In this document: in pieces, positions 13,338-35,915 of the stretch | Position numbering within the stretch: position 1 is the first letter of the stretch | Layout of the letters: every line of letters starts with the position of its first letter | NCBI GenBank assembly: GCA_937923175.1 | Contig: CALALB010000009.1 | Span: 62,001-126,000 of the forward strand | Reading direction: 5' to 3' | DNA length: 64,000 nt | DNA from: an uncultured Chromatiaceae bacterium | Lineage (GTDB): Bacteria; Pseudomonadota; Gammaproteobacteria; Chromatiales; Chromatiaceae | Notes under the pieces: generated by a model | Database searches by the model: none | The model's input: only the letters and a program-made list of their open reading frames with translations | What the model was told of the DNA's origin: nothing | Made by a program: the position numbers and the translations under genes

Positions 13338-15725
13338 ATGGCAGAGATGGATCGGGCAGAGATAGAGACCCAGGACCCTGCAGCAACCCCGCCAGCACCT
13401 CTGGCGCGTGCCACGGATGTATTGCCGACCGAGATCTATCTGCTCCCTGTCGCTGCTCGCCCCTTTTTCCCCGGCCAAGCGGTACCCTTGATGATGGCTG
13501 CTGAACCCTGGCTACCGACCATGAGAGCGGTGGTCGAGACCGAGCACCGTCTGCTGGGTATCATCCTGGCGGATACCGAGAACGCGGAGGAAGCGACGGC
13601 CGATCGGCTCAGGCGCATTGGCACTGCCGCGCGCGTTCATCGCGTCCATCAGCAGGAGGGGCATCTGCAGGTCCTAGTCGAGTGTCTTCAACGCTTTCGC
13701 ATCGAGGATTGGATCTCGACCCAGGCCCCCTTTCGGGCGCGGGTGACCTATCTGCCGGAGTACAAGGGCCCGCCTGATCCCGAGGTCAAGGCCTATGCGA
13801 TGGCGGTTATCAATACCATCAAGGAGCTTCTGCCCTTGAATCCGCTGTATGTCGAGGAGCTGCGCATGTTCCTCGATCGCTTCGGGCCAGATGATCCCTC
13901 GCATCTCGCCGATTTTGCTGCCAGCCTCACCACCTCGACCAAGGACCAGCTCCAGGAGGTCTTAGAGACCGTGCCGCTGCTGCCGCGGATGGAAAAGGTT
14001 TTGGTCCTGCTCAACAACGAGCTTGAGCTTGCCAAGGCGCAGCAGAAGATCCGCCGCACGGTCGAGGAAAAGATCCAGAAACACCAACGCGAGTTCTTTT
14101 TACGCGAGCAGCTCAAGGCAATCCAAAAGGAGCTCGGGATCGCCAAGGACGATCGCACCGCCGAGATCGAGCGTTTCCGCAGCCGGTTGGAGGGCCTCAA
14201 GCTAACCGAACAGGCGGAAAAGCGGGTCAAGGAAGAGCTCGATAAGCTCGGCATGCTGGAGATCGGCTCACCTGAGTATGCCGTCACCCGTAATTATCTC
14301 GATTGGGTGACCCTCCTGCCTTGGGGCCGTTATTCTGAGGACATCCTGGATCTCGAACGCGCCCGCGGGATCCTCGACCGCGATCATTATGGGTTGCAGG
14401 ACGTTAAGGAGCGGATTCTGGAGTTTTTGGCAGTCGGCATCCACAAGGGCGAGATCGCCGGATCCATCGTCCTCTTAGTCGGTCCGCCGGGGGTTGGCAA
14501 GACCTCGATCGGACGTTCGATCGCCGATGCCCTGGGCCGGCGCTTTTATCGCTTCTCGGTCGGCGGGATCCGCGACGAGGCCGAGATCAAGGGCCATCGC
14601 CGCACCTATATCGGCGCCATGCCGGGCAAGTTCATCCAGGCGATGAAGGAGGCCGAGACTGCCAATCCGGTCATCCTGCTCGATGAGATCGACAAGATCG
14701 GTGCCTCCTTTCATGGCGATCCTGCCTCGGCCCTGTTAGAGGTGCTAGACCCCGAGCAGAACAGCGATTTTCTGGATCATTATCTCGATCTGCGTTTTGA
14801 TCTCTCTAAGGTCTTGTTTATCTGTACTGCCAATCAGCTCGACACCATCCCCACCCCCTTGCTCGATCGTATGGAGGTGATCAAGCTCTCAGGCTATATC
14901 GCCGAGGAAAAATATCAGATCGCCAAGCGTTATCTACTCCCACGCCAGCTTGAACGCGCAGGCCTTGGCCGGGATGCCCTGCGGATCGGTGGGGGTACGC
15001 TGCGCGCCCTCATCGATGGCTATGCCCGGGATGCCGGGGTCAGGCGGTTGGAAAAACAGCTCAACAGGATCGTGCGCAAGGTGGCGGTGCGCCTGCTGGA
15101 GGGGGCCGAAAAACCGGTGAGGATCAGGCAAAGAGACCTCAAGTCTTATCTTGGCAGTCCAGTGTTTCGCGACGAACGCAAGCTCTCAGGTCCAGGGGTG
15201 GTCACTGGTCTGGCCTGGACCCCCATGGGTGGGGCAACCCTCTCGGTCGAGGCTGCGCGCGTCCATCATTTCGGCCGGGGTTTTAAACTTACCGGTCAGC
15301 TTGGGGAGGTGATGAAGGAATCGGCTGAGATCGCCTATGACTATGTCGTTGGTCATGCCGAAGAATTTGGCATCAACCCCGAGTTTTTCGAGAAGGCATT
15401 CGTCCATCTCCATGTCCCAGCTGGGGCGACCCCCAAGGATGGCCCATCGGCTGGGATCACCATGGCCTCGGCCTTGATCTCGCTTGGGCGTAACCAGCCG
15501 GTGCGCCGTATTGCTATGACCGGCGAGATCACCTTGACCGGCGAGGTGTTTCCAGTCGGGGGGATCCGCGAAAAACTGATTGCGGCGCGCCGGGCGGGGA
15601 TCACCGAGATCATCCTGCCCGCCGACAACCGTGGCGACTTCGAGGAGGTCCCAGAACATGTGCGTGAGGGTCTCAAGGTCCATTTTGCCGAACGTTTCGC
15701 GGAGGTCTTGCTGCAGCTGTTTTGA
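13338..15725 (+). CDS. lon: Lon protease (ATP-dependent, LonA type)
   Basis: Cytosolic ATP-dependent serine protease of 795 residues, near the usual family length. Order: N-terminal substrate-binding LON domain (about 25-220, [20 protein letters not shown]), coiled-coil region, AAA+ module with Walker [12 protein letters not shown] (about 382), Walker [12 protein letters not shown], and C-terminal protease with the catalytic Ser in PKDGPSAGI (about 703) and Lys in [14 protein letters not shown] (about 745). ATG 13338 with GAGG about ten bases upstream is preferred; the frame stays open further upstream to 13236. No clpX or hupB flanks it, so this may be a second Lon copy rather than the housekeeping locus. 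Confidence 0.95.
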
Positions 15726-15818
15726 TCAGGCCCCGACTGGCCCTTAAAAAACCAAATCAGGCGCCGTTACCAACCCCAGGCAAATCGGCTAGATCGCTAG
15801 AGCAATGGGGGTTCGATC

Positions 15819-16031
15819 ATGATCAGTCCGTTCATGCAGCCCAAACGGCGGGGGATCGTTGCGCCATTCGCCGGGCGTTGGCAAGAGGCACGTCTGCTGC
15901 TTCGGCTCGATGCTGATCTGGAGGGCGGGCGCTGGCTGGCGCAGATCTATGATCAGGCTGCCCGGCGTCCTGTGCGCCGGCTCGATCTCGATCAGGCCCT
16001 TAGATCGGTCAGCAAAACCTTCGCCCTCTAG
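15819..16031 (+). CDS. Small hypothetical protein (70 residues)
   Basis: Unrecognised 70-residue ORF in the gap between lon and the GGDEF gene. Its codon choice resembles that of the neighbouring genes (many GAT CTC / ATC TAT / GCC pairs), and the composition is plausible for a small soluble protein: a segment RLLLRLDADLEGGRWLAQIYD followed by RRLDLDQAL. A weak GGGGG stretch lies upstream of the ATG. No motif or signal peptide is seen. It may instead be a chance ORF. Confidence 0.4.
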   Translation: MISPFMQPKRRGIVAPFAGRWQEARLLLRLDADLEGGRWLAQIYDQAARRPVRRLDLDQALRSVSKTFAL

Positions 16032-16217
16032 CCATTGGTCGCCTGCTCTCCGAACCTGACCAGCGCCGATTTCATGTCACTTCAGCCGATCCTCCGTCGG
16101 CATCTCGTCGGCCCAGATGTCATGGATCGAGCCAATTCCGCTGCTATGAAGGCCAAGACCCCCTGGCATGGATTTCGCCTCTCTCAGCGTGTCAACCGGT
16201 CATGCAGGGGGTGTCAG

Positions 16218-17144
16218 GTGCAACCGATCCAGCAAAACACCATACCTCAGTTCTCCCTTATGCCCGCATCTGAGGGTGCGGTGGCCATCGATGCCGTACG
16301 CTTTTTATTGGCGATGACCGCCTCGCTTGAACTCGATGCGGTCATCAGGACGCTCAATGCCTTTTTGGTTGAGCTGGTTGCCCCGACGGGTTGGTCCTAT
16401 CGCAGCCCCGGCGATGAACTGCACTTGAGCGAAGGTCAACAGATCGGCCACAGTGTCCAGTATCGGCTTGGGTTGAATGATCAGGCGCTGGGTGTACTCG
16501 AGCTGTACGGGGGGCGGCCCTTTTCTGCCGAGGACCAGCAGCGCATCGAGGGTCTATTGGCCTTGGCCGTGCCCTCAATCCAGAACGCCCTGCGGTTTTT
16601 CCAGGTCAGCCGGCAGCTCGAGCGCGATCCGCTCACTGGGCTGGGTAACCGCCGCGCCCTGATGCTCCAAGGCGCCCAATGGCTAGCCGATTGTATCCGG
16701 CATCGCCATTCGCTTTCGCTGCTGGTTTTGGATCTGGATCGTTTTAAGATGATCAACGATACCTATGGTCATCCTACGGGGGATCGGGTGCTGTGCCAGG
16801 TCGCCGAGGTCTTACGGACAGTCACCCGGGCGGCAGATCTCTGCGTGCGCCTGGGCGGCGATGAGTTTGTGGTACTCCTGCCCGGTGCGACCCTGGATGA
16901 GGCCCAGGACTGCGCCGAGCGCATCCGCCAGGCGCTGGCCGAGCATTGGGTCGAGACCGAAACCGGCGAGCGGGTTAGGATCGGGGTGAGCATCGGGGTA
17001 GCGACCTATCGCTCCGGCATGGACCTCGAGCAGCTGTATCGAGAGGCCGATGCAGCCCTTTATGCCGTCAAACAGGCGCGCCCAGAGCGTGCCCCGCACC
17101 GCCTGGGCCGAATGGGATTCCAGGTCCAACCGCTCCTGGCCTAG
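16218..17144 (+). CDS. GAF-like/GGDEF diguanylate cyclase
   Basis: Predicted soluble diguanylate cyclase of 308 residues. The N-terminal part (about 15-135) looks like a GAF-type sensor (LAMTASLELDAVIRTLNAFL; YRLGLNDQALGVLELYGG). The GGDEF domain (about 140-300) contains DPLTGLGNRRAL, LDLDRFKMINDTYGH, and intact RLGGDEFVVLL near residue 212, with the RAAD inhibitory-site motif five residues before. The start is a judgement: GTG 16218 has AGGGGG six bases upstream; the frame is open back to 16035 and an ATG at 16260 has no good ribosome site. It is the third c-di-GMP enzyme in the window. Confidence 0.87.
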   Translation: MQPIQQNTIPQFSLMPASEGAVAIDAVRFLLAMTASLELDAVIRTLNAFLVELVAPTGWSYRSPGDELHLSEGQQIGHSVQYRLGLNDQALGVLELYGGRPFSAEDQQRIEGLLALAVPSIQNALRFFQVSRQLERDPLTGLGNRRALMLQGAQWLADCIRHRHSLSLLVLDLDRFKMINDTYGHPTGDRVLCQVAEVLRTVTRAADLCVRLGGDEFVVLLPGATLDEAQDCAERIRQALAEHWVETETGERVRIGVSIGVATYRSGMDLEQLYREADAALYAVKQARPERAPHRLGRMGFQVQPLLA

Positions 17145-17900
17145 GGTCGTTGATCACCGACCAAGCAGCCAAATGATATCCAGATGGCCCGGCGCGACCC
17201 AATGCCGTCCTTCAGGCGCTGTGCTGGCCTCCTAGGCCTGTGCCTCTGCGTCTATCCATGCCTGGGAGTGACTGCCCTCCTTGTCCAAAAATCCTCGCTG
17301 TCATCGACTGGTATCCTCTCGGGGATCAGGTTTGCCAGTTGCGTTCTTCATGTTTCAAGCAGGGGGTCACTGCTAGCCAGGGAGCATCACCCGCTGGGCT
17401 GCTGGTACCCAGTGGATCGCCCTCATCGGTCCCAGTCCATCCCCAAGATCCAGACCCTAAGCCGGCAAATTCCGTTTTAGCCCGGATCGCCTCCTTCCCT
17501 AGCGGTCCAAGGTGGTCAAACCCTTGCTGCTGCAAACCATCGCAGACACTTACCAGCTGCGGGAATGCCCACCCGTGGGAGGGGCAGAGAGATAAAATCA
17601 CGCCAGCTCTTCGAGCTGCCTCTAGCAGCCCCTCATTCGTCCACTGTGAGCATGCATGCTTGCGGGTCGCCCTGGTTTTGAGTGAAGCCGCGGGCTCATC
17701 CAGTTCATGGACTGAGCTTTTGCCGTTTACTGGGTCATGACGCATGAGACAGATCAATATCCCATTGAACCCGTTCTCACCGCTTGAGGTGGGCGAGCAG
17801 ACTAATGCGGAATGAGGCAAAGGGCGAGTGGCAACGGTAGATCGGTATAGAGGTATAGAGCAGGGCGCAATGACCCGTTGCAGATCATAGGATCCTGATT
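17145..17900. other. Long gap without a supportable gene
   Basis: About 750 bases with overlapping ORFs on both strands (for example 17240-17740 plus and 17326-17820 minus), all with non-ATG starts, Pro/Ser/Cys-rich translations and no recognisable motif or ribosome site. I see no RNA gene, IS end or repeat array. The base composition becomes more AT-rich from about 17,900 on. It may be a degraded gene or an insertion scar. Confidence 0.5.
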
Positions 17901-17907
17901 GCAGGAC

Positions 17908-17939
17908 TTGACACTATATCTTGTGGAGTATAGTGTCAA
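17908..17939. promoter_or_regulatory. Perfect 11-bp inverted repeat upstream of molybdoenzyme operon
   Basis: Left arm TTGACACTATA (17908-17918) and right arm TATAGTGTCAA (17929-17939) are exact reverse complements separated by ten bases. The left arm holds a consensus -35 (TTGACA) and the right arm a -10-like TATAGT with 15-base spacing, so a promoter may be embedded in an operator. It lies 158 bases before the first operon gene within an AT-rich leader. Binding by a dimeric repressor or activator is inference; I do not recognise the site. Confidence 0.6.
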
Positions 17940-18096
17940 TTGCATTGTGCATAGATTTTATGCTAAATTAATTGGCAATGTTACCAAGCCAAATCTCATC
18001 GTCGTGAAGAATTAGATCGTTTGGTCTTTTTCGAATATAAGAAAACAATTATAACCAAGTCTCTGGTCGTCCACAATATCAGAAGGCGGAGGGTAC

Positions 18097-18807
18097 ATGA
18101 GCGAGGAGTTAAGGGTTTCGCCAATCGAAACCCGCGGCAAGACGTGCGTGAAACGTTATGCAATGGTCATCGATGTGCGCCGTTGCATCGGCTGTCTGGC
18201 CTGTCAGGTGGCGTGCAAGGCTGAATACGATACGCCGTTGGGTGTCAATCGTACCTGGGTACCCTACAGGGTGGTGGGTAAATATCCGAACGTCAAAAAA
18301 CAGTTTTTGCCGCGGTTGTGCAACCACTGCGACGATCCGCCCTGTGTGCGTAATTGTCCGGTGGGCGCGACCTTCAAGGTCGAGGATGGCGGTTTTGTAT
18401 TGCAACGCTATGAGCGTTGCATCGGTTGCCGCAGCTGTATGGCGGCCTGCCCCTATAATGCCCGTTTCATGCTGCCTTCTCATCGCACTTACACGCCGAT
18501 TACCAATGTGGTCGACAAATGCACCTTCTGTTTCCATCGCGTCAATGAAAATCTAGTGCCTGCCTGTGTCCAGACCTGCATTGGTCGAGCGCGCGTATTT
18601 GGCGATCTGAATGACCCAAACAGCGAGGTATCCTATCTCGTGGCCAAGAATGCCACTCAGGTGTTGCGGCCAGAACAGGGTACCAAGCCGCATGTGTTCT
18701 ACATTGGCGCTGATCGCAATCAGACCGAGTTTGCTCGCGATGCCTATCATCGACCCGAGGTGATGGAACTCGAGCGCGCGGCCTTCAAGCGTCATTTTAA
18801 GATTTAA
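18097..18807 (+). CDS. Four-cluster ferredoxin subunit of molybdoenzyme complex (PsrB/DmsB-like)
   Basis: Electron-transfer subunit, 236 residues, of a DMSO-reductase-family complex. Four cysteine clusters are visible: CIGCLACQVACK (about 33), CNHCDDPPCVRNCPVG (about 73), CIGCRSCMAACPYN (about 108), and CTFCF ... CVQTC (about 142-165), fitting four [4Fe-4S] centres. It has no signal peptide, so it would be exported in complex with the Tat-carrying catalytic subunit. The start follows AAGGCGGAGGG by only three bases from its end. Gene order here is B-C-A, as in some polysulfide/tetrathionate-type operons. The substrate cannot be inferred from this subunit. Confidence 0.9.
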   Translation: MSEELRVSPIETRGKTCVKRYAMVIDVRRCIGCLACQVACKAEYDTPLGVNRTWVPYRVVGKYPNVKKQFLPRLCNHCDDPPCVRNCPVGATFKVEDGGFVLQRYERCIGCRSCMAACPYNARFMLPSHRTYTPITNVVDKCTFCFHRVNENLVPACVQTCIGRARVFGDLNDPNSEVSYLVAKNATQVLRPEQGTKPHVFYIGADRNQTEFARDAYHRPEVMELERAAFKRHFKI

Positions 18808-18822
18808 AAAAGGAAAATCGAC

Positions 18823-19686
18823 ATGGGCGATTACGTCTGGTTCCATGACTATTCCTGGCATCCGGTTTATTCTGTTTACTTTTTTGTAGTCGGCATCCTT
18901 GCAGGGTTGTCGTTCTTGTCTTACGGATCATGGTTGATCCCGGCCTTGCGCCCATTGCGCGAAAAGGCGGCTTATGGGTCTCTGGGGTTGCTGGTGATTG
19001 GGGGTCTGCTGTTGATCGCTGACCTTTCCCAGCCCCTGCGTTTTTTGAATGTGCTGAATCCGGCCTATCTGCAATTTACCTCGCCGCTGGCCTGGGGGGC
19101 GCTCAATATCGTTGCCTTCGGTGTGTTTTCATTGCTCTACATCCTTGAGCTGCAAAAGAAACGGGAGGCTGCGCTCGGTAAGATTCTGGCGATGATCACC
19201 GCCCTGTTAGGCTTAGGGTTGCCGATCTATACCGGCTATGACCTGACCGTGCATCAGTCGCGGCCGATGTGGAATACGCCGATCATGCCGGTGCTATTCG
19301 TCGCCTTGGCGATTGCCTCGGGTTCTGCAGTCGGGTCGCTGCTGGCCGGCAAAAACCAGGATGCGCAAAGGGTTCTCCGTGAGTTTATGCTGTGGTCTGC
19401 GGCTGCAGTGGGCATTGTGCTAGTCGGCATGCTCGGGACAACCAGCTATGGGGGTTCGGCTGAGGAGCTGACCTTCCTGATCCTGACGACGGGCACCATG
19501 GGTTTGATCTTTGTCGGCGTGGGCATCATCGCCGGAACGGCTGCACCTATCGCCCTATTGTTCTATGCGCATCTTAGAGAACGGACTACTGGCCTGGCCT
19601 TTGCCGCCATCCTGATCCTGATCGGGAGTGCAGCTCTGCGCTATGCCTTGCTGATGGGCCCTCAAGAGTTACAAACCCTGTACTGA
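18823..19686 (+). CDS. NrfD-type membrane anchor of molybdoenzyme complex
   Basis: 287-residue integral membrane protein of the NrfD/PsrC family, which exchanges electrons between quinone and the ferredoxin subunit. About eight hydrophobic helices are visible, beginning with YSVYFFVVGILAGLSFLSYG and including LGLLVIGGLLLIADL and the segment FLNVLNPAYLQFTSPLAWGA typical of the family (the Pro-Leu-Ala-Trp after helix 3). A good AAGGA ribosome site precedes the ATG, 15 bases after the ferredoxin gene. It is shorter than PsrC proteins with nine or ten helices, matching the eight-helix NrfD subgroup. Direction of electron flow is unknown. Confidence 0.9.
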   Translation: MGDYVWFHDYSWHPVYSVYFFVVGILAGLSFLSYGSWLIPALRPLREKAAYGSLGLLVIGGLLLIADLSQPLRFLNVLNPAYLQFTSPLAWGALNIVAFGVFSLLYILELQKKREAALGKILAMITALLGLGLPIYTGYDLTVHQSRPMWNTPIMPVLFVALAIASGSAVGSLLAGKNQDAQRVLREFMLWSAAAVGIVLVGMLGTTSYGGSAEELTFLILTTGTMGLIFVGVGIIAGTAAPIALLFYAHLRERTTGLAFAAILILIGSAALRYALLMGPQELQTLY

Positions 19687-19708
19687 CCGCACGAGAGGAG
19701 ATCCAACC

Positions 19709-22360
19709 ATGATGGAAATGACCAAACTCAACCGGCGCACCTTTCTCAAGGTCAGTGCGGCTACTGGCGCGGCTGCTGCCGTAGCACCCCGGCTGCTGAA
19801 GGCCATGGAGCTCGAGCTGGCTGGCAAGGATGTCAGTCCAGTATCCGGTGTCCAACGCAAGGCTGTTCCCATCACCTGTCATTTCTGCAATATCCAGGAT
19901 GGCGCCATTGCCTATCTGGAGAACGATCGGGTGGTCAAGCTCGAGGGGAATCCCGAGCATGTTTCGACCCGAGGTCGTTTGTGTCCGAAGGGCAATTCGG
20001 GCATGTGGTATAGCTATGATCCGGATCGTATCCTGTATCCCTTGAAGCGGGTCGGCAAACGCGGTGAGGGAAAATGGAAACGCATTACCTGGGACGAGGC
20101 GCTCACTGAGGTCGCTGCCAAGCTGGACGAGGCACTCAAGGAAGACCCGAACACCATCGTCCTGAAATATGGGCGCAATCGCACCGGCGGGGTCCTCGAC
20201 CGCTTTATGCAAACCCTGGGTTCAGACAGCATCATCAACCATACCTCGGTTTGCGAGTCATCGAAGAAGGTGGGGATGGAGCCGGCTTGGGGGCCAGACA
20301 TCGAGACACCGGATTTCGCCAATACAAAGTACGTTTTGAACTTTGGCTCGAATGTGCTGGAGGCGTCCTATTTCCACAATCCGCTCTCACAGCGCGTCGC
20401 GGAAGGCCGCGTCGACAATCACATGAAGATCGTGACCTTCGACGTGCGCCTGTCGAACACCGCCGGCTTCTCGGACGAATGGATTCCGGTGCACCCGGGC
20501 ACGGATGGGGCTGTCGCTCTGGCGATCGGTCATGTGATCCTGCGTGAGGATCTTCAAGACTCCGAGTTCATCAACACCTGGACCAATGTCACGGTCGATG
20601 AGCTGAAAGAGCACTATAAGCAATTTACCCCCGAATGGGCGGAGAAGATCTCAGGCGTGCCGGCGGCAACGATCGAGCGCATTGCGATCGAGTTCGCCAC
20701 CACCAAGCCGGCGACGATCTTTACCTATCGCGGTCCGGCCAAGCACCTGTATGGGTCCTATAATGAAAAGGCCTGCATGATGCTGCCGGTCATGACGGGT
20801 AACATCGAACGGCGAGGGGGGTATTGCCTGCCGCGGGGGATGAGCTGGCCGCAGCCGAAACCTGAACCGCCCAAGCCGGCCAAGCATGCCTATATGAATA
20901 AGCATCATCATCCGCTGTACCCGCTAGCAAGCCACGGGGTTTCTCATCTTCTGCCCTTCCATATCGCCGACGGTACCATGAAGGTGAATGTCTATTTCAC
21001 CTACCAAGATAATCCAGTCTATACCAATCCGGGTGCCCGGGCGGTTTGGGGTAAGGTGCTCTCCGATGAAACGCTCGTCCCCTTCTTTGTCTCGATGAGC
21101 TCGCATATGGGCGAAGAAACAGCGCTCGCCGACATCATCCTGCCCGATTGCCCCTATCTCGAGCGCTGGGAACCGGAATCGATGCCGAATTCGCTCTGGC
21201 CCTGGCTGGGCATCCGCCAGCCGGTGCACAAGTCGCTCGGCGAATCACGCGAAAACCGCATCCTGATGCGCGACATCATCTGGAAGCTCGATCCGGATGG
21301 TTCGCGGGGCATGCGCAAATACTGGGAGTTCAAGGATGGCGAGGATTATATGCGCCATCACTTCGACAATATTCCCGGCCTCAAAGAAGCCGGCGGTCTC
21401 GACTTCCTGAAGAAACATGGCGTCTGGCCGATCTATGGCAAGCTCGATCCGAGGACGGGCAAGATCGTCGATAAGACCGGTCGCGAGATCAGGGCTGAGT
21501 ACGGCCTATACAAGAAAGAGCTGTCCGAAGAAGAGATGGCGGGTGCCATCATCGATGAGAATGGCCTGATCACCAAGAATGGCAAGGCGATCGGCATCCA
21601 GCGCAATGGTAAGAACTATGTTGGGTTTGCAACGCCCAATCGCCTGATCAACGTCCGGGTCGATGAGTGGGCCAAATATGGCTTCAACCCCATGCCGACC
21701 TTCAAGCGTATTCCCTGGCACGAGACGATGAGGGAGGATGAGATGATCCTCACCACCTTCAAGCTCAACGTGCATAAGCAGTCGCGCAGTGCGGCGGTGA
21801 AATGGCTGGCCGAGATCGCTCATAGCAACCCTGCCTGGATCAACACCGAGACGGCGAAGAAGATCGGTGTCAAGACCGGCGATCTCGTTCGTGTCGAGTC
21901 GAAGGTGGGTTATCTCGTCACCAAGGCCTATGTGACGGAAGGGATCCATCCCAAGGCCATCGCCATTCCGACCGCCTTTGGCCACTGGGAATACGGCCGT
22001 TTGGCGACTCTCAAGCTCAAGGAGAAAAAACCGGAATGGAGCCATGGCCAGGAAGACCCGGATTTCAACAACGTCTGGTGGGATGACAAGGGGGTTCACC
22101 CCAATGACATTATTCCAGCCATTGCCGACCCGATCGGTGGTTCACAGGCTTGGTTTGATACCGTGGTCAAGGTGACCAAGGCGGGTCCGAATGACAAGTA
22201 TGGTGATGTCGTTGCGGATTGGGACAGGCATGTCGAAGCCTTTAAAGAAGGTTTGCGCTATGCCTACACGGGTGATCTACACCGCAAGATGCACCCGGAG
22301 ATGGCCCACTGGAAGGGGCCCGAGGAGGCGGGGCACGAATCAGAGGGCAGTCATCTCTGA
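19709..22360 (+). CDS. Tat-exported molybdopterin oxidoreductase, catalytic subunit of unknown substrate
   Basis: 883-residue bis-MGD enzyme of the DMSO reductase family. A Tat signal (LNRRTFLK, Arg9-Arg10) puts it in the periplasm, unlike cytoplasmic SoeA. The cluster motif is Cys57, Cys60, Asp64 and Cys92 (CHFCNIQD ... RLCPKG): Asp stands where the third Cys is expected. The likely Mo ligand is Cys182 in HTSVCESSKK, as in polysulfide, thiosulfate, tetrathionate and arsenate reductases. Family signatures DEWIPVHPGTDGAVALAI (present as SDEWIPVHPGTDG) and ADIILPDCPYLERWE are clear. AGGAG lies eight bases before the start. Substrate and direction are unknown; a sulfur oxyanion, polysulfide or arsenic compound are candidates. 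Confidence 0.88.
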   Translation: MMEMTKLNRRTFLKVSAATGAAAAVAPRLLKAMELELAGKDVSPVSGVQRKAVPITCHFCNIQDGAIAYLENDRVVKLEGNPEHVSTRGRLCPKGNSGMWYSYDPDRILYPLKRVGKRGEGKWKRITWDEALTEVAAKLDEALKEDPNTIVLKYGRNRTGGVLDRFMQTLGSDSIINHTSVCESSKKVGMEPAWGPDIETPDFANTKYVLNFGSNVLEASYFHNPLSQRVAEGRVDNHMKIVTFDVRLSNTAGFSDEWIPVHPGTDGAVALAIGHVILREDLQDSEFINTWTNVTVDELKEHYKQFTPEWAEKISGVPAATIERIAIEFATTKPATIFTYRGPAKHLYGSYNEKACMMLPVMTGNIERRGGYCLPRGMSWPQPKPEPPKPAKHAYMNKHHHPLYPLASHGVSHLLPFHIADGTMKVNVYFTYQDNPVYTNPGARAVWGKVLSDETLVPFFVSMSSHMGEETALADIILPDCPYLERWEPESMPNSLWPWLGIRQPVHKSLGESRENRILMRDIIWKLDPDGSRGMRKYWEFKDGEDYMRHHFDNIPGLKEAGGLDFLKKHGVWPIYGKLDPRTGKIVDKTGREIRAEYGLYKKELSEEEMAGAIIDENGLITKNGKAIGIQRNGKNYVGFATPNRLINVRVDEWAKYGFNPMPTFKRIPWHETMREDEMILTTFKLNVHKQSRSAAVKWLAEIAHSNPAWINTETAKKIGVKTGDLVRVESKVGYLVTKAYVTEGIHPKAIAIPTAFGHWEYGRLATLKLKEKKPEWSHGQEDPDFNNVWWDDKGVHPNDIIPAIADPIGGSQAWFDTVVKVTKAGPNDKYGDVVADWDRHVEAFKEGLRYAYTGDLHRKMHPEMAHWKGPEEAGHESEGSHL

Positions 22361-22386
22361 CCAGGTGATAGAGGCTGAACAGGCTT

Positions 22387-23226
22387 ATGAAGACCTCCCA
22401 GATCGAGGGTAAGAAAAGCGGTATCAGCCAGCCCACGGCCATCCCTGAGGTTGCGGCAGGGATGGCTGCTGAGTGTGGTGCCCGCGCTCTGCTCTATCGC
22501 CTGCTGTCTGCCGTCTTCGTCGAGGAGGCATCGGCAGAGTTTCTGAGCGCCATGCGCACTCCGGAGATGCTCGAGCAACTGGCTGAGGTCGGTATAGGTT
22601 TCGATGCCGATTTCACTGCTGCGCCTCTGGCTGAGCTCGTGGATACGCTTGCGGTCGAATATGCCAGTTTATTCGCTGCCTCGGGTGGGTTCCCGCCGGT
22701 TGAATCGGTGCGTCTCTATGGCCGTTATCGACATGAGCCCAACTTTGAGGTGATGCAGACTTACCAGCGTCTAGGGTTCGTGCTCCAACCGGGTCGCCAT
22801 GAGGTATTTGCCGACCAGCTCGGCGTCGAACTGATGTTCATCGCCGAATTGCTCGAACGCCAGGCCGAAGCGCTCGCCAAAGGCGACCTTATCGCTAGCC
22901 GCAAGCTGGAAAAAGAGATCAAACGTTTCTGGAGTCGGCATCTAGGCCGCTGGGTCAGGGGGTATGCACGGCTGATCGAGCGAGCAGCGATGCATTCATT
23001 CTATCGGGAGATGGCCCGCTTTCTAAGAGGATTCGCCGAAGAAGAGATCGCTGCCCTGGGTCTGCACATCGAGGATGCCGATGGAGCGCGCCTCGAGGTT
23101 CCCAAGGCCGAGGTGCAGGAGGCGGCGGATCCGCAAAAACCGGGGTGCACCAGCGACGCCGCCCCACCAGGTCGGCAGGGTATCCGGCGGTTGCAGGATT
23201 TACGCTTACCAAGCGTCCCAGACTGA
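22387..23226 (+). CDS. TorD/DmsD-family molybdoenzyme chaperone
   Basis: 279-residue helical protein of the TorD/NarJ chaperone family, which binds the Tat leader and helps cofactor insertion into one partner molybdoenzyme. Supporting segments: CGARALLYRLLSAVF, LAVEYASLFAASGGFPPVESV, and the family core ADQLGVELMFIAELLERQAEAL followed by HLGRWVRGYARLIE. The C-terminal 50 residues are Pro/Gln-rich and outside the fold. It lies 26 bases after the catalytic gene, so it is presumably the dedicated chaperone for that enzyme. Confidence 0.87.
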   Translation: MKTSQIEGKKSGISQPTAIPEVAAGMAAECGARALLYRLLSAVFVEEASAEFLSAMRTPEMLEQLAEVGIGFDADFTAAPLAELVDTLAVEYASLFAASGGFPPVESVRLYGRYRHEPNFEVMQTYQRLGFVLQPGRHEVFADQLGVELMFIAELLERQAEALAKGDLIASRKLEKEIKRFWSRHLGRWVRGYARLIERAAMHSFYREMARFLRGFAEEEIAALGLHIEDADGARLEVPKAEVQEAADPQKPGCTSDAAPPGRQGIRRLQDLRLPSVPD

Positions 23227-23303
23227 CCTGCCGCCCCAGCCTGGGGCACGCTGGGCTCCTGGCTCGTGGTAACCCCGATCGTTGCTCATGAGGCGCTGAT
23301 TGT

Positions 23304-23747
23304 ATGAGTATCCTTGATCTTGCCCCGCCCAAGCTGTTGCCGCCCGATCGCCAGGTGCTTGCCAATCTCGATTGGTCAGAGGCTGCAGCGCTGTGGAATA
23401 GCAACCAACTGCGGGCACTGCATGATTGGTTGAACGAACGCTGGTCGCGCCTGATCCGCAATAGCCTGATGGGGACCAAAGATCCTGAGGCAGAGTTTCT
23501 GCAGGGATTGGCCTATGCGACGCTCGCGTTGTTTTTCACCCAAAACCGCAATCAGGAAGGCGCACTCTTGATGATCGATGATGCCTTAATCGTCTTAGCA
23601 AAATATCGGCCAGGTTATTTGGGGGTGAAGATTGAGCCGATCATCGCCGCCTTGCAGGAATTACGGCCGCTGCTCGTCGGTTTAGCGCCGGATGCGGAAT
23701 GTCCTGTGTATCCCTTTGTCTACCCGAAATTCGAATATACGCCCTGA
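23304..23747 (+). CDS. DUF309-like small helical protein
   Basis: 147-residue soluble protein. The arrangement EAAALWNSNQLRALHDWLNERWSRL, EFLQGLAYATLALFFTQNRN, GALLMIDDALIVL and YLGVKIEPIIAALQEL resembles DUF309 proteins (a helical bundle with an N-x(n)-H-x3-E-x2-W type first helix), though the His/Glu positions differ. The function of DUF309 is not established. Its location inside a molybdoenzyme operon suggests an assembly or maturation role, which is inference. Confidence 0.6.
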   Translation: MSILDLAPPKLLPPDRQVLANLDWSEAAALWNSNQLRALHDWLNERWSRLIRNSLMGTKDPEAEFLQGLAYATLALFFTQNRNQEGALLMIDDALIVLAKYRPGYLGVKIEPIIAALQELRPLLVGLAPDAECPVYPFVYPKFEYTP

Positions 23748-23751
23748 ACAG

Positions 23752-24423
23752 ATGGAGTCTGCTGCGCCCGATCAGCCTGAGTTATTGCTGAGGCGTCTGC
23801 TGAGTTTCAATCCGCAGGATCTGGCCCCTTACACCTCCGAGGATTTTATCATCGATGCCCCTGGCGTCGAGGACATCGCGGCGCGGTGTAGCGGCGTCGT
23901 TTTGGCTCAGGCGAATGCAGCCGAGGATCGGGCCATTCAGCTGCTTGTGGCGGGCGCGCCTTTGGTATTCATCGGGGATGCGGCCCTGCAGGACAGCGCG
24001 CTGGTCAAGCGTCTAGCGGCTCGTTATCCTGAGCGGGTGGGGATCTATGCCCCAGCAAGGCGTCAGTCAGTGAGCTGGTCATTCGATACGGTTTCCAATG
24101 CTGACTTCAAGGTCATGACCCCTTCACTAGCCGAGCCGGCATGGGAAGTCCTGAAGGCCGATGGTACACCGACTGGTACCCTGCTTACCTGGTGGTTGAC
24201 CGAATTGCGACAGCTCGGTGCCGTGCAGTTTCTCGTGCATGCCGAGGTGCGCGACGATACCGATCTCAATATCCTGGCTGGGCTGGTCGAGATGCTGGGT
24301 GAGAGCCTATGGGTTGCCCCCCGTAGCCCAGAGTGTCTACCGCTTGCCGACTGGATCAACTATGGGCGCTGCCGCCAGCTGGCGCTATCTGCCATCGATG
24401 CTGAGCACCTGAGGATCACCTAA
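23752..24423 (+). CDS. Unrecognised accessory protein (223 residues)
   Basis: I do not recognise this soluble protein. It starts with ATG 23752, four bases after the preceding stop. The sequence reads as an alpha/beta domain: VEDIAARCSGVVLAQANAAE, a hydrophobic strand APLVFIGDA, RVGIYAPARR, SWSFDTVSNADF, and a second half with FLVHAEVRDDTDLNILAGLVEML. There is no signal peptide, membrane helix or cysteine motif; a single Cys pair is scattered. Tight spacing places it in the molybdoenzyme operon. Confidence 0.75.
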   Translation: MESAAPDQPELLLRRLLSFNPQDLAPYTSEDFIIDAPGVEDIAARCSGVVLAQANAAEDRAIQLLVAGAPLVFIGDAALQDSALVKRLAARYPERVGIYAPARRQSVSWSFDTVSNADFKVMTPSLAEPAWEVLKADGTPTGTLLTWWLTELRQLGAVQFLVHAEVRDDTDLNILAGLVEMLGESLWVAPRSPECLPLADWINYGRCRQLALSAIDAEHLRIT

Positions 24424-24427
24424 ACGC

Positions 24428-24865
24428 ATGAAACCTTGGCGAGCTGTCCTTGTTTTGCTGTTCTCCAGCGCCTTAGCGCAGGCTACCCTTGCCTCAGTTG
24501 GCCCCCAGCATGGGCAGCCGGCGCTTCTTGCCATCGGGTCTGAATCAGTCGATCTCACCCAGGCATTAAGCCCGATGACGCCGCTTGCCGGCCACCCCTT
24601 CTCCTGGCCAGTCAGGGGCAAGCCACCGGCGAGTGTGATCCTAGCTGATCAGGGTATGCAGTCCCCCTTGAGTGGGGCTCAGCCGGACGCCGGCTCAGAC
24701 CCGCTCGCCGATCAGGGCGGGGTCGATAGGGAGGAAAGGCAAGTCGGCACCGGTTCAGAGGCTATTCGTAGCGGGACGCCGCCGGAGAGGGGATTTGGCT
24801 TCGTGATCCCTAAGAATACCTGTGAATCCGGCTCTGCCCTCCAGGAATTCCAGAGCGATTATTAA
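24428..24865 (+). CDS. Predicted secreted hypothetical protein
   Basis: 145 residues with an N-terminal signal peptide (AVLVLLFSSALAQATLA, cleavage after about residue 22). The mature part is Pro/Gly/Ser-rich with no recognised domain and one Cys near the end (KNTCESGSALQEF). It starts four bases after the previous stop. The final 44 bases overlap the open frame of the following Fe-S protein. A periplasmic factor for the exported molybdoenzyme is one possibility; it could also be a poorly conserved ORF. Confidence 0.55.
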   Translation: MKPWRAVLVLLFSSALAQATLASVGPQHGQPALLAIGSESVDLTQALSPMTPLAGHPFSWPVRGKPPASVILADQGMQSPLSGAQPDAGSDPLADQGGVDREERQVGTGSEAIRSGTPPERGFGFVIPKNTCESGSALQEFQSDY

Positions 24866-25961
24866 TACGGTTGTGGGTATCGCGTATCCAGAATTCCACC
24901 AGACTCATTGCGTTCGTTACCGCTATCGCTATAGCGCCTGCCAGCGTTGCGCCGAGGTCTGCCCGCATGAGGCAATCGTGCTCTCTGATCAGGGGGCGCA
25001 GATCGATCCAGCCCGTTGTCAACATTGTGCTCTCTGTCTCTCCGCCTGCCGGAGCGGCGCCTGGACGAGCAAAGGTTTCGAGCCGATTGAACTGGTGCGC
25101 CGGGCAATCGAACACACGCAATTTAGCATCGCTTGTGCACCCTCCGGGCTGAGGGGGGATGCCATCGTCCCCTGCCTAGGGGCAGTCGATGCAGGGATAA
25201 TCGCCTATTTAGGCAAACGCCGTATCCAGTTGACCCTCTTGGGCAGCGCCCATTGCCATCATTGCCCTCATGGTGCCAAGGGTACCGAGCAGATCAGCCT
25301 CAATCTGGAGGCTGCCGCAATCCTGCGCAGTGCTGCCCAAGAGGAGGGGCGGGACTGGCTAGAACCCGTGTTGTCCGCTGCCCCGAGCGTGACCCAGTCG
25401 CCCCAACCCGAGCGCCGCCAGCTGTTTCGCCGTCTGGTTGGCGGTTTGGTCGACGCCGGTCCGGATCCACAAACTGCCAACCCCCCAGTAGCCGCCGAGC
25501 GGGCCATTCGCGCTGCACCCTATGTCACCAGCGAACGACGTGAGCTTCTGCAGATCGTTTGTGAGCGCACGGGCGGCCAACCGACGCGCATCGATTGGCA
25601 TGAGGCATTGCCCCTGATGCAGCTGACCTTGGAAGGGGGCTGTACAAATTGTGAGGCCTGTTTCCGGGTCTGTCCGACTGGCGCCCTCCAGATCGTCGAA
25701 AACCCGGGTGAATGGGCGCTCACCTTCCAGATCGACCGCTGTGTGGGCTGTGCAGTCTGCCTTGAGGTCTGCCAGCCTGGGGTGCTCAGGGCCGTAGCCA
25801 ATTTCGATGCGCGTCCGGAACAGCCAGCGCGCATCCTCCATGCCCTGGCCAAACAGCGCTGCGCGCGCTGCGACCGTTTTTTCGTATCCCCCAGCCCCAC
25901 CGAGATCTGTCCGGTCTGTCGCGACGATGAAGAGGCCTTCTTGGCAATTTTCGGTAGATGA
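24822..25961 (+). CDS. Multi-cluster 4Fe-4S protein with C-terminal zinc-ribbon-like end
   Basis: 379-residue soluble Fe-S protein. Cysteine motifs are in two pairs: CQRCAEVCP and CQHCALCLSACR near the N terminus, CTNCEACFRVCP and CVGCAVCLEVCQPG near residues 275-310, with CHHC between them and CARCDRF ... CPVC at the end, a rubredoxin/zinc-ribbon-like knuckle. This suggests up to four [4Fe-4S] clusters plus one metal site. Sequence order resembles a duplicated 2[4Fe-4S] ferredoxin. Start is uncertain: ATG 24822 overlaps the previous gene; GTG 24873 is an alternative. It may carry electrons for the complex or serve in maturation. Confidence 0.78.
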   Translation: MNPALPSRNSRAIINTVVGIAYPEFHQTHCVRYRYRYSACQRCAEVCPHEAIVLSDQGAQIDPARCQHCALCLSACRSGAWTSKGFEPIELVRRAIEHTQFSIACAPSGLRGDAIVPCLGAVDAGIIAYLGKRRIQLTLLGSAHCHHCPHGAKGTEQISLNLEAAAILRSAAQEEGRDWLEPVLSAAPSVTQSPQPERRQLFRRLVGGLVDAGPDPQTANPPVAAERAIRAAPYVTSERRELLQIVCERTGGQPTRIDWHEALPLMQLTLEGGCTNCEACFRVCPTGALQIVENPGEWALTFQIDRCVGCAVCLEVCQPGVLRAVANFDARPEQPARILHALAKQRCARCDRFFVSPSPTEICPVCRDDEEAFLAIFGR

Positions 25962-25975
25962 GGGGGTGTAAGGCG

Positions 25976-26377
25976 ATGGAATGGGAATTCACACCGGCAG
26001 ATGTCGTCAAGGGCTTAAGCGATTATCGATTGGAGGATTTTCGTCGCGATCTGGCTGAAGAGGTGCGCTTAAATCTAGGCGAGGATGAAGAACGCTGTAG
26101 GCATGTTTTTCATCTGCTGTATGACCTGTGCTATGCGCTCGCTACCCACCAGGATCTAGAAGCGCACCTGGCCAGCTATGCCTATGACCCGCCCACAGTG
26201 CAATTCTTGCGCGAACTGTCTCCGCTGATGGCTGATAACGCTGCGATGCTCGGCGCCATTCTGCAGCGCCAGATCATGGATCGGGTCGAGTCGGGCATGC
26301 CGCTGGAGGACGCCATCGCCGAGGTCGGGGAATGGCATCGGCGGACCATCGCTGCAGAGCTTACCCAGTTGGGTTGA
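25976..26377 (+). CDS. Small helical hypothetical protein (133 residues)
   Basis: Unrecognised, acidic, all-helical protein with no membrane segment or motif beyond VFHLLYDLCYALATHQDLEAHL and NAAMLGAILQRQIMDRVESGMPLEDAI. ATG 25976 with TAAGG just upstream is preferred to 25958. It begins 15 bases after the Fe-S gene and is the last gene of the operon. The 350-base gap that follows holds a degenerate FNR-like site near the next start and no gene. Confidence 0.75.
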   Translation: MEWEFTPADVVKGLSDYRLEDFRRDLAEEVRLNLGEDEERCRHVFHLLYDLCYALATHQDLEAHLASYAYDPPTVQFLRELSPLMADNAAMLGAILQRQIMDRVESGMPLEDAIAEVGEWHRRTIAAELTQLG

Positions 26378-26688
26378 TTCCCTTCCAGCGCTCTCAGTCT
26401 TCAGGTTCAGGCGTTGAACCTATGATGCGCCGATTGGCAGCATCCTAAGCGGATAGGACCCTCGCCTGGGCCAGGGGGGTGCTTGGGCGTTTCGGCCTCG
26501 CAAAGGATTGGCGCGGCACTTTAGCCCCCCTCGGGCCCAAGGCGGCCCAGCCTTTCATGAACCTTCTGCAGGCCTGCCGAAGGTCTCCCCAATAGGCTGA
26601 GGCCCCCTTTGAGCCAGCCTGGGGTCAGGATAGAGTGACCCAGTCAACACATCGACCTGCCGACTTGGTTTAGACTGTCCGCTTTATG

Positions 26689-26702
26689 TTGGTTGTAATC
26701 AA
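26689..26702 (+). promoter_or_regulatory. FNR/CRP-like box upstream of chemoreceptor
   Basis: TTGGTTGTAATCAA differs by one base from the FNR consensus TTGAT-N4-ATCAA. It ends 27 bases before the MCP start codon, so it would act by repression or overlap the promoter if functional. A single match of this length in a 64-kb window could be chance. Confidence 0.35.
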
Positions 26703-26729
26703 ATATCTGTTTAAGAGGCAGTCAAAACC

Positions 26730-28397
26730 ATGCTAAGCGATCTCAAATTGAGCGTGAAGCTGGCCGCCAGCTTCTTTGCGATGGCAGTCATCATCTTGGT
26801 TCTCAGTGCCTTGGGCACGCGCAGTGAATTAGAAATGCGCGCTTATCTGGTTGGGATGAACCAAGAGACACTTCCTGCAATCGTGGCGCTCAACCGGTTG
26901 AACTATGAACGCGTTTCGCTCCGCGGCCGGATCTATGAGGTCAAGGCGCTCAGACATCAGGACCCCGAGTCGCTTGAGCAGGTTCTGCGCCAGCAGGTTG
27001 CTGCCTGGCGGGTGCTCGACGAGCAACTCAAGCAGATCGAAGATCTGCCGCGCTCGGTCGAAGAGCAGGCGATCTTCAACGCACTCAAATCCGACTATCA
27101 CAAATGGCGCGAGCACTATAGAGAGCTCGAGCGCCTGATCCAGTCCATGATCCAGGCCCCGGACGCGGCTGTCTTTAGCGATCTGCATAGCCAGTTTTCG
27201 GTTCAGCTCGATGCAACCTTCCTGGTTTCGGATCGGGTGGCGGTCTTGATCGAATCCCTGGTCGCACTCAAGAACAAATCCACTGCCGATACCCTGGCCA
27301 AGGCCGAACGTGAGAGCAGACTGGCAATCGTGCTCTATTGGATCGGCGCTGCTGTCGGTGTACTCGTGTCTGTTGTGTTAGGGGTCTTTGTTTCCCGCAG
27401 TGTTTTGCGCCAGCTTGGCGCTGACCCGGCGCAGGTGGTCGGGATCGTCAACCGGCTTGCCGAAGGCGATCTGACCACCGAGATCCAAACGCGCCAGGGC
27501 GATCAGACCAGCCTGCTGGCTGCCATGGCGCGTATGGTCGATAACCTCAGGCGACTGTTACGCGAGGTGGCCAATGCCAGCGCCCAGGTCGCCGCCGCTG
27601 CCACCCAGCTTTCCGCGACTAGTGAGGAGACCAAAGGTCAGGTCGAGATTGAACATGCCCAGGCCGAGCAGGTCGCCACCGCGATGAACGAGATGACCGC
27701 CACAGTCGAGGAGGTGGCGCGCAATGCTGCAGCTGCAGCCCATGCCGCCCAGGAGACCGACCGCGAGACCGAGGCAGGGGGCCAGGTCGTCGCCCAAACC
27801 ATCTCGGCGATCGATCTGTTGGCGCAGGAGGTCGAATCGGCAGGTCAGGTCATCGCCCAACTCTCGAAGGACAGCGAGGAGATCGGAGCGGTGTTGGATG
27901 TGATCCGGGGTGTAGCCGAGCAGACCAATCTGCTTGCCCTCAATGCCGCGATCGAGGCGGCGCGTGCCGGTGAACAGGGACGCGGGTTCGCCGTGGTCGC
28001 CGCCGAGGTACGCACCCTGGCCAGCCGCACCCAGTCCTCAATTCAGGACATCCAAGAAAAGATCGAGCGGGTCCAAAGCGGCTCGGCGGGGGCAGTTGCG
28101 GTCATGAACAAAGGTCAGCAGATGGCGCGCGAAAGTGTCGTCCAGGCCCAGCGCGCTGGCGAGTCGCTCCAGACGATCAGCGCAGCGATCGCCCGTATTG
28201 CCGATATGAACCGTCAGATCGCCAGTGCTGCTGAGGAACAGGCAGCGGTTGCCGAGGAGATCAACCGCAATATCCATGTGATTTCATCCACGGTCGATCA
28301 GACCGCCCGGGGTTCGGCCCATATCGCCAGTGCCAGCGAAGAGATGGCGCGTCTCGCCAGCCGACTCCAAGAGCGTTTGGGGCGTTTCAGGCTGTAA
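26730..28397 (+). CDS. Methyl-accepting chemotaxis protein
   Basis: Inner-membrane chemoreceptor of 555 residues. First membrane helix at about 10-30 ([19 protein letters not shown]), a helical periplasmic four-helix-bundle type sensor domain (30-195), second helix at about 196-222 ([20 protein letters not shown]), a HAMP domain, then a methyl-accepting signalling domain with the conserved hairpin tip [27 protein letters not shown] precedes the start. No CheA-binding motif gene or chemotaxis operon is nearby. The ligand is unknown; position just after the molybdoenzyme operon allows a redox or sulfur-compound taxis role. Confidence 0.92.
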
Positions 28398-28406
28398 TTT
28401 CAGAAC

Positions 28407-30008
28407 TCAGCCAGGCGCTGGGTATTGGATCAGCCGTCGGATGAGTTCCTCCAAAACCAGGGGGGTGAGCGGTTTGCTGATCCGGGCGGCGAGTTCAGGG
28501 ATCTCTGAACCCTGCTCATCCGGTGCGACCATGCCGATGATGGGCGGCTGGCGCACCGTCTGGGCCGGCTCGCCCGTCATCTGGGCGAGCATCCCGGTCA
28601 ATGGGTCCTGCAAGCCGACGAGATCGATGAAGACCAGGTCATAGTCAGCCGTCTTTAAACAGGCGATGCCTGTATAGGGATCCGAGACGATCGCCGTATC
28701 ATGGCCAGCTTGTTGGAACAGGGCGGCAGCAAGCTTTTGATGGATTGGATCGGGTTCGATAAAGAGGATACGCAGATGAGGGCGATGCTCAGCGAGCAGG
28801 TGCCGGGTGATTAAGGGCCCCTTTGCTGGGCGCTCGGGCGCAAGGACTCGACTGAGCAAGGCGCGCAGTTCGAACGGTGGGATCGGCTTGGTCAAGAAGG
28901 CATCGATCCCGAGCGACCGGCAACGTTCCGCATCGCCGCGTTGACCCAGCGAGGCGAGCATCACCAATGCCCTCTGCTCGGCCAGGCCCTCGACCTTGAG
29001 CTGTTGGGCCAGGGTAAAGCCATCGAGTCCCGGGAGCACCGAATCGAAGAGATAAAGATCGAAGCGTTGGCTCCGGGCCAGTTCCAGGGCCTGGATACCG
29101 CTGCTCGCCTGCTCGACCGCAAATCCCCAATCCTTGAGCCAATAGCTCAGGGTCCGCTGGGTCTCACGATGATCATCCACGATCAAGGCCCGTTTGCCGT
29201 TCCAACGGGTTGCCCAGGGTGCTGCTGTCTCCGCTGTCTTATCGGTTGGGAGCCGCACCAAGGGCAGATCGATATGCAATGCCGTCGGTGACTGATCATC
29301 GATCCAGATCCGGCCACCCATGGATTCGATCAGACGCCTGCAGGTCTCGACCTGCAAACAGTCCAGATAACTGAGCTTGGTCTCTGGGGTCTCTGCTGAC
29401 GGGGCGAAGAATCGGCGTAGCTCATCTGGCCTCTGACCAAGGTCAAGCAGCGAAAACCGGACCCAGTCGAGCTTGGGATCGTCGCTCTCAAGCCTTCGCA
29501 TCTGAATACAAGGGTTTACGTCCGGCAAATGAATCAATAGGGCATTGGCGAGGATCGTTAAGATCTGGCGGATCCGTCCTGGATCGCCTTGGTTGTGGTT
29601 CGGCAGATCATTGGCCAGATCAAGATGAACCCGGCGCCCTTGCGCCTGAACGCTGTCCGCGATGGCATTGGTGAGATCGGTAAACAACACCGCTGGATTG
29701 AAGGGGATCTGCACAAGTCCGATTGCGCCGGTTTGCAGATGCGTCATATCCACTAGGATCTCGGCCCGATCGAGCAGTGATTGGGCCCCGGCCTGGATCT
29801 GCTGGAGATAATCGCGCTGGTTTGGGCCCAGATCCGTATCCAGACTCAAGGCCGCAAGTTTAAGGATCTCCTGAAGCCCAAGGCGGATCTCGCGGCTTAA
29901 CTCGGTGAGATACTGACCTTCAGAGAGCGGATTCTGAGCTGCCGGGGGGGCAGATGCGCTCACCTGCGTTGAGGATAAGGCAGCGTGCGGTTCTGGGCTG
30001 GGGGTCAT
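28407..30008 (-). CDS. Degenerate hybrid histidine-kinase-like protein with two receiver domains
   Basis: 533-residue soluble protein. A HisKA-like helix LTELSREIRLGLQEIL has Arg where kinases have the phosphorylated His (SHEIR). A poorly conserved ATPase domain follows (N-box GDPGRIRQILTILANALL; G1-like LLDLGQRP), so kinase activity looks lost. Two receiver domains come next: the first has VDDHRE, the acceptor Asp in LYLFDSVLPGLDG and Lys in LTKPI; the second has FIEPD, acceptor Asp in LVFIDLVG and SKPLTP. It would be a phosphorylation target or scaffold rather than a source. It converges on the MCP gene. Confidence 0.8.
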   Translation of the reverse strand: MTPSPEPHAALSSTQVSASAPPAAQNPLSEGQYLTELSREIRLGLQEILKLAALSLDTDLGPNQRDYLQQIQAGAQSLLDRAEILVDMTHLQTGAIGLVQIPFNPAVLFTDLTNAIADSVQAQGRRVHLDLANDLPNHNQGDPGRIRQILTILANALLIHLPDVNPCIQMRRLESDDPKLDWVRFSLLDLGQRPDELRRFFAPSAETPETKLSYLDCLQVETCRRLIESMGGRIWIDDQSPTALHIDLPLVRLPTDKTAETAAPWATRWNGKRALIVDDHRETQRTLSYWLKDWGFAVEQASSGIQALELARSQRFDLYLFDSVLPGLDGFTLAQQLKVEGLAEQRALVMLASLGQRGDAERCRSLGIDAFLTKPIPPFELRALLSRVLAPERPAKGPLITRHLLAEHRPHLRILFIEPDPIHQKLAAALFQQAGHDTAIVSDPYTGIACLKTADYDLVFIDLVGLQDPLTGMLAQMTGEPAQTVRQPPIIGMVAPDEQGSEIPELAARISKPLTPLVLEELIRRLIQYPAPG

Positions 30009-31181: not shown

Positions 31182-31184
31182 GGC

Positions 31185-35908: not shown

Positions 35909-35915
35909 ATAGGCA

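Follow-up and report, generated by a model that had tools for sequence, protein, structure and literature searches.

Two lineages of respiratory arsenite oxidase, Aio and Arx, and the arsenate reductase Arr are among the described systems with which the present locus can be compared. In passages of PMC5908839 on their sensors, the pocket of the binding protein AioX is made up of Y88, C106, Y131, S161, S163, H192 and D210, and a loop with V56 plus residue 57 is found in AioX and ArxX but not in ArrX. Unnamed novel lineages in the same region of the tree are mentioned in a passage of PMC10100899 (section 8), and the antimonate reductase AnrA is named in a passage of PMC13284237. The locus considered here is a nine-gene molybdoenzyme operon in a 64,000-nucleotide stretch (the window) of contig CALALB010000009.1, positions 62,001 to 126,000, from an uncultured Chromatiaceae bacterium (assembly GCA_937923175.1). 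Comparison with its relatives suggests, with moderate confidence, that the operon encodes a membrane-bound molybdoenzyme oxidising arsenite to arsenate. We give about an even chance to the wider proposal that it represents a third independent lineage of respiratory arsenite oxidase beside Aio and Arx. This lineage would have an Asp-ligated first iron-sulfur (Fe-S) cluster and its own accessory set, would extend across Beta-, Gamma- and Alphaproteobacteria, among them a purple phototroph, and would have been repeatedly re-wired among arsenite-type sensor systems. The arsenite link is probable because close relatives of the operon nearly all adjoin an arsenite-type sensor gene, and the enzyme is not classed as Arx because its catalytic lineage falls outside Arx and Arr in the tests for membership.

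The nine open reading frames (ORFs) between 18097 and 26377 are complete, all on the + strand and free of internal stops (Table 1). They encode in order B, C, A, TorD, DUF309-like, HisF-like and rhodanese-like proteins, an Fe-S protein and a helical protein; the starts at 23752, about 24873 and 25976 of three accessory genes were judged from homologues. The domains of A, together with a Fer4-type B and an NrfD-type C, place the complex among the three-subunit Fe-S molybdoenzymes of the dimethyl sulfoxide (DMSO) reductase family. The original prediction, made from this DNA alone, described a B-C-A order, a catalytic subunit with a twin-arginine translocation (Tat) signal, a TorD chaperone and five further genes downstream. 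All of these are present as intact frames on one strand, the B, C, A and TorD genes with matching Pfam domains. Judged from spacing and conserved order, the nine genes may be co-transcribed.

Subunit A contains the Pfam domains Molybdopterin (5.7e-32), Molydop_binding (2.2e-16) and Molybdop_Fe4S4 (1e-8), as well as TAT_signal at 27.0 bits (cut-off 22.7). It reaches the cut-off of none of the 25 NCBIfam models listed. The score for ArrA is 194 bits with a cut-off of 1600, which the Arr reference row itself (about 1154) does not reach either, and the score for TtrA is below the curated cut-off, as it is for the Ttr reference rows. For B the top NCBIfam model is TtrB (220 bits, cut-off 416), and B matches its counterpart in KH32C, the plasmid-borne locus of Azoarcus sp. 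KH32C, at 89%.

Phylogenetic trees of A with DmsA as outgroup were constructed from 72 rows and, more carefully, from 41 rows. The references were E. coli PhsA, Ttr-type and Arr/Arx rows; PsrA, SrrA, SreA, SoeA, AnrA and AioA stand outside the rows, and own_C9a, which we take to be SoeA-like, is the sole row of that kind. L063, L066, L088, L112 and L029 were omitted as near duplicates, and L086 is missing from the first tree (short predicted protein). Window A belongs to a supported family in both trees (57 rows with a Shimodaira-Hasegawa-like approximate likelihood ratio test (SH-aLRT) value of 99 in the 72-row tree; 30 rows, 99/100, in the 41-row tree), and the core clade that contains it has a support of 100/100 in the 41-row tree. 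The five Arr/Arx rows in that tree form a separate clade (100/100) outside this family, and the Arr/Arx references, the Ttr-type rows and E. coli PhsA are outside it in both trees, although PhsA is on a long branch and several reference rows were flagged by the program as long branches. The expectation that the system would not match Ttr or Arr is thus borne out by both trees and scores: A has a distinct clade, lies in none of the characterised clades placed (PhsA, Ttr, Arr/Arx), and has accessory genes that are also present in its relatives. No tested member of the A family was found. The literature searched, which left most subscription papers uncovered, yielded no description of the core clade (passages of PMC10100899, PMC7331816, PMC6683785, PMC6549141, PMC6620896 and PMC5908839), and a text search combining PhnD, TorD, NrfD and selenite reductase gave no paper.

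The cluster motif of A is C57-X2-C60-X3-D64-X27-C92, with Asp where the usual motif has its third Cys, and Asp64 would ligate the first Fe-S cluster. Proteins predicted at 600 amino acids or fewer, such as the broken L030, were left out of the residue counts, which cover 23 of the 26 core loci and 85 family rows. Among the family rows 57 have Asp at the third cluster position, 25 have Cys and three have a gap; all 23 core rows have Asp. The ArxA/ArrA motif CX2CX3C was found in all six Arr/Arx rows read but in no core row. At the active site the core pattern is GR[N/Q/D], H-T-S-x-C and K (23/23), which is near both Arr (GRY, HSAxC, K) and Arx (GRG, HSSxC or HASxC). Cys182 is likely the Mo ligand. 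Some distant family rows lack this Cys; in the family members L035, L036 and L037 the region reads Ser or other residues, and cytochrome-like genes follow A.

Related loci were collected from 112 relatives, a plasmid collection and a genome scan (the best 80 of 571 relatives); counts of relatives are lower bounds and biased to close ones. An A match at E<=1e-100 was found in 14 of the 112 relatives. The core set consists of 26 loci, the window included, with an A identity of at least 74%, and most core genomes are metagenome-assembled genomes (MAGs). The gene order of the operon is found again in other genomes at 74-86% A identity, and the arrangement is therefore not a matter of chance. Where at least 4.3 kb is available downstream (21 core loci), the DUF309-like, HisF-like and rhodanese-like genes are always present and the helical gene is present in 18 loci. 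The Fe-S protein was found in 21 and TorD in 22 of the 26 core loci, the misses being loci that end less than 0.5 kb after A. At E<=1e-3 the profiles of the DUF309-like, HisF-like, rhodanese-like and helical genes gave no match in the non-core loci fetched, except for the rhodanese-like profile in nine loci of a sister type described below. Among the 112 relatives, the DUF309-like gene occurs in exactly the two genomes with a core A, and the helical gene in the window genome and, as a 35-residue fragment, in a congener. The co-occurrence that had been proposed as a check is thereby found, with the accessory genes tied to the core clade across genomes.

The congener fragment (G004, C1:1253589-1253883; locus L148, 9590-9884) is the C-terminal part of the helical gene. 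Less than 30 bases away is a 57-residue stretch like the end of a regulator, and about 1.3 kb separates these fragments from an arsC-ACR3-arsD operon. They are probably the relic of a core-type operon.

A binding protein of the AioX type (PhnD-type) is found at 24 of the 26 core loci, and at 22 it is accompanied by a kinase and a regulator; L052 and L060 are cut off by the contig end, while the window and L024 have none of the three sensor-system genes nearby. Among solved structures the KH32C binding protein matches AioX best (1.4e-61) and ArrX next (1.1e-35), both far above PtxB or PhnD. With residue numbering set by hand from the KH32C-AioX alignment, all of the pocket residues listed for AioX in PMC5908839 are present in 23 of the 24 core sensors, and the 24th (L052) leaves the contig before the last residue. 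The V56 loop is present in all 24, with F57 in 20 and I57 in four. A second, partial sensor copy at L044, with Thr at the S163 position, was not counted. Besides KH32C, 28 plasmid records carry such a sensor, of which 12 were chosen and inspected. In eleven the stretch retrieved includes arx-type genes or aio genes (the latter annotated 'arsenate reductase (azurin)'); the twelfth carries the annotation aioX-aioS, and its stretch is too short to show more. The sensor tree has 54 rows, with alignments of fewer than 220 columns and L063, L088, L029 and L112 omitted. Three Comamonadaceae core sensors join the sensor of a Hydrogenophaga aio cluster (100) and two wider-family sensors join the arx sensor of Sulfuricella (99); sensor swaps remain within the arsenite type. 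The substrate had at first been left open. Because relatives carry arsenite-type sensors there is now a lead.

Arsenic resistance genes point the same way. Five core loci have an ACR3 gene no more than 10 kb away, compared with 0.10 expected (P 6e-8 if independent; 22 ACR3 matches in 81.9 Mb). Without KH32C, for which the plasmid record alone was searched, the count is four compared with 0.10 expected (P 2e-6). A sixth core locus, L087, also has arsC nearby.

Several observations weigh against arsenite oxidation, and they bear on different alternatives. The identity of A to the Arr/Arx references is 28-31%, and the 41-row tree does not settle the branching order of the window family, Arr/Arx and Ttr. 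The active-site signature is unspecific, since GR and His are also found in own_C9a, L022, L023 and one Ttr-type row (L127), and its Lys is missing from two of five Arx-type rows. The remaining core sensors fall in a weakly supported group (82) to which one arx-cluster sensor and one aio-cluster sensor also belong. Seventeen of the 22 ACR3 genes are not near a core operon, the ACR3 of the window genome is on a different contig, and genomic islands could unite ars genes and the operon without a common substrate. Such a shared island would account for the sensor and ars genes if the substrate were a sulfur or selenium compound (polysulfide, thiosulfate, tetrathionate or selenite) and the enzyme Psr/Phs/Srr- or Ttr-like. 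The best NCBIfam score of A, for PhsA (348 bits, cut-off 694), and its best solved match, a PDB entry named 'thiosulfate reductase', agree with this, as does the rhodanese-like protein in both the core and the sister operon, which points towards sulfur or selenium chemistry; rhodanese genes are reportedly also present in the srr operon of Bacillus selenitireducens. This explanation is nevertheless rather unlikely, considering that neither tree places A with the PhsA or Ttr references, that the core sensors have the AioX-type pocket and are swapped within that type, and that ACR3 is enriched. Arsenite-type sensor and rhodanese-like protein together would fit thioarsenate or another mixed arsenic-sulfur species, which we regard as highly improbable as a substrate; the rhodanese-like protein could instead serve cofactor maturation.

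The direction of the reaction is a separate matter. According to a passage of PMC5908839, ArrX has the same pocket residues as AioX, yet binds arsenate, and because of this the sensor pocket leaves the direction unfixed. An enzyme that reduces arsenate (or antimonate) in anaerobic respiration and stands apart from the ArrA clade would also agree with the nearby ars genes and with menD, which is above cut-off in five of 20 core genomes including that of the window. The two best PDB matches of A, the 'thiosulfate reductase' entry, which is presumably a Psr-type enzyme from Thermus, and ArrA, fit a reductase as well. Such a role is unlikely since 15 of the 20 core genomes lack menD and all 20 lack mqnC above cut-off (one has two mqnC-like matches below it), and since the sensor loop is of the AioX/ArxX kind. 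The window organism, represented by a 2.5 Mb draft genome, is a phototroph with two reaction-centre genes and can use electron donors. Ubiquinone suits arsenite oxidation better than arsenate reduction because of the potentials involved. Many carriers seem to use ubiquinone, and oxidation is therefore favoured, although in a core set dominated by MAGs the missing menaquinone genes may be missing sequence.

The remaining points against arsenite oxidation concern the window itself. A sigma-54-like site is located 66-129 bases before the estimated B start in all 25 other core loci (8 to 11 of 11 positions); its score was equalled by 0 to 44 of 200 letter shuffles depending on the locus, and because of this the weak sites carry little weight singly. 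Upstream of the window operon a site of this kind is absent, and the window genome has no match to the AioX-type sensor at E<=0.001. Searches of window positions 13001-18100 and 26371-36000 with the sensor, operon and ars queries were negative at E<=0.05. The window copy has probably lost the sensor, kinase and regulator control found in relatives. These losses, the divergent window copy of the rhodanese-like protein and the congener that retains fragments alone would be expected if the window operon were a decaying horizontal acquisition without function, whatever its role in relatives. Decay is quite unlikely given nine intact frames and retained catalytic residues. The upstream inverted repeat, a candidate operator, argues in the same direction: it gave one match and none in 100 shuffles, and is unique to the window genome among the 55 genomes searched (0/54 others).

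Table 1. Features of the molybdoenzyme operon and its upstream region (window positions)
Feature	Position	Strand	Basis or remark
Perfect 11-bp inverted repeat TTGACACTATA-N10-TATAGTGTCAA	17908..17939	.	5' of operon; candidate operator
B subunit, ferredoxin-type Fe-S electron-transfer protein	18097..18807	+	Fer4_11 5.5e-24
C subunit, NrfD-type membrane subunit	18823..19686	+	NrfD PF03916 2.2e-33
A subunit, Tat-exported catalytic subunit with molybdenum/tungsten bis-pyranopterin guanine dinucleotide (Mo/W-bisPGD)	19709..22360	+	Pfam domains, trees
TorD-family chaperone	22387..23226	+	PF02613 1.5e-16
DUF309-like protein (h147)	23304..23747	+	DUF309 E 8.4e-6, 25.8 bits, slightly below cut-off 27
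HisF/HisA-like (beta/alpha) barrel protein (h243)	23752..24423	+	AlphaFold2 predicted local distance difference test (pLDDT) 90.7; Foldseek HisF 5tql E 1.7e-7
Rhodanese-like protein (h145)	24428..24865	+	Signal-peptide-like start; conserved C-terminal FVIPxNTCE
Multi-cluster Fe-S protein	24873..25961	+	Fer4_7 2.1e-14; longest ORF from 24822
Small all-helical protein (h139)	25976..26377	+	AlphaFold2 pLDDT 93.0, all alpha; longest ORF from 25958

The partners of the enzyme had been called unrecognised, which now applies to fewer of them. The barrel and the rhodanese-like protein have recognisable relatives. In two arx-type clusters an Fe-S gene precedes the catalytic gene, and the KH32C orthologue of the Fe-S protein can be aligned with it (24% at E 1e-14 in one cluster, 28% at E 8e-12 in the other). 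The model of the helical protein matched no PDB structure at E<=0.001. With the Fe-S protein set aside, the remaining four accessory proteins probably have roles in maturation or in handling the substrate. An Rfam search of 16000-27000 found no RNA.

The sister type of the operon, with an A 56-59% identical, is found in Allochromatium, Sedimenticola, Phaeovulum and others (14 loci with marker genes, some being one contig fetched twice). It contains B, C, A, TorD, a glycosyltransferase-like gene, a gene like the methylglyoxal synthase domain (MGS-like, slightly below cut-off), the Fe-S protein, a small cytochrome, Mrp-like ATPases and HisF-like and rhodanese-like genes, followed by a sensor gene where the contig extends that far. 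The MGS-like and glycosyltransferase-like genes recur in sister loci L025-L029 and L063-L070. In hhalign comparisons the HisF-like protein of the window type matches the sister c16 family (89%, E 2.2e-6) and the core rhodanese-like protein matches the sister rhodanese family (98.3%, E 2.2e-14); PF00581 is above cut-off in sister member L069 and below it in core member L042. TorD, the Fe-S protein, the barrel and the rhodanese are regarded as the common accessory set because profile comparison links the two operon types. The congener G004 has a shortened sister-type A gene with an in-frame TAG (L030).

Other molybdoenzyme genes were observed near some of these loci. In a Rhodocyclaceae MAG (L058, 16712-22636) the core operon is faced by a second, convergent operon on the other strand, whose A, B, C and Fe-S protein belong to the same families. 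The contig of the window carries two molybdoenzyme genes upstream, outside the window (G000:C9:430 and G000:C9:38429), of which one has a Tat-like start and the other does not. A distantly related locus on a plasmid of Sulfurovum mangrovi (L130) includes NrfD, TorD and a 379-amino-acid Fe-S gene; no gene is listed for its A region, and the match there is split in two.

If the operon encodes an arsenite oxidase, A, B and C would form a periplasmic, membrane-anchored complex with its own TorD chaperone. Arsenite would be oxidised to arsenate at the Mo of A, and the electrons would pass to the first cluster of A, with Asp in the third position, then to the clusters of B, the NrfD-like C and the quinone pool. 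In the window organism the quinone pool would feed them into the photosynthetic chain, and in relatives they would reach nitrate or other acceptors. The complex would thus work like Arx with a catalytic subunit of a separate lineage. In relatives, the AioX-type binding protein, the kinase and a sigma-54-type regulator probably turn the operon on.

If this is true, genome surveys based on aioA and arxA overlook a third enzyme that oxidises arsenite in groundwater, sediment and purple bacteria, and estimates of arsenic-transforming organisms change. A family with Cys or Asp at one cluster position is also a natural series for studying the tuning of the first Fe-S cluster, and it tests whether the type of sensor predicts the substrate of the enzyme.

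Comparison with known systems suggests a complex whose anatomy is of a known kind, with Arx-like control and an Arx-like Fe-S partner in relatives, and a catalytic lineage that appears to be new. Aio has the AioX-type sensor system in common with the relatives, but the nine genes include no Rieske-type small subunit and have an NrfD subunit instead. Ttr is similar in that B scores best with the TtrB model, and differs in that A is outside the Ttr-type clade. The PsrA/PhsA/SrrA group gives A its best NCBIfam and PDB scores; A is nevertheless below cut-off and E. coli PhsA outside the family on its long branch, with PsrA and SrrA absent from the trees. Arr is a Cys-ligated Mo enzyme with a related active-site pattern, and ArrA is the second-best solved match, whereas the ArrA score, the separate clade and the 15 of 20 core genomes without menD above cut-off set the operon apart. 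Arx (arxB2ABCD with arxXSR) shares the Tat-exported catalytic subunit, the NrfD subunit, the TorD chaperone, the extra multi-cluster Fe-S protein and the GR...H..xC pattern, as well as, in relatives, an AioX-type sensor, kinase and regulator beside the operon and ars genes near some loci. It differs in its gene order (B2-A-B-C-D, compared with B-C-A-TorD in the core) and in GRGWG where the core has GRN, GRQ or GRD, whereas core A forms a separate clade with Asp for the third Cys and the core operon has four more accessory genes.

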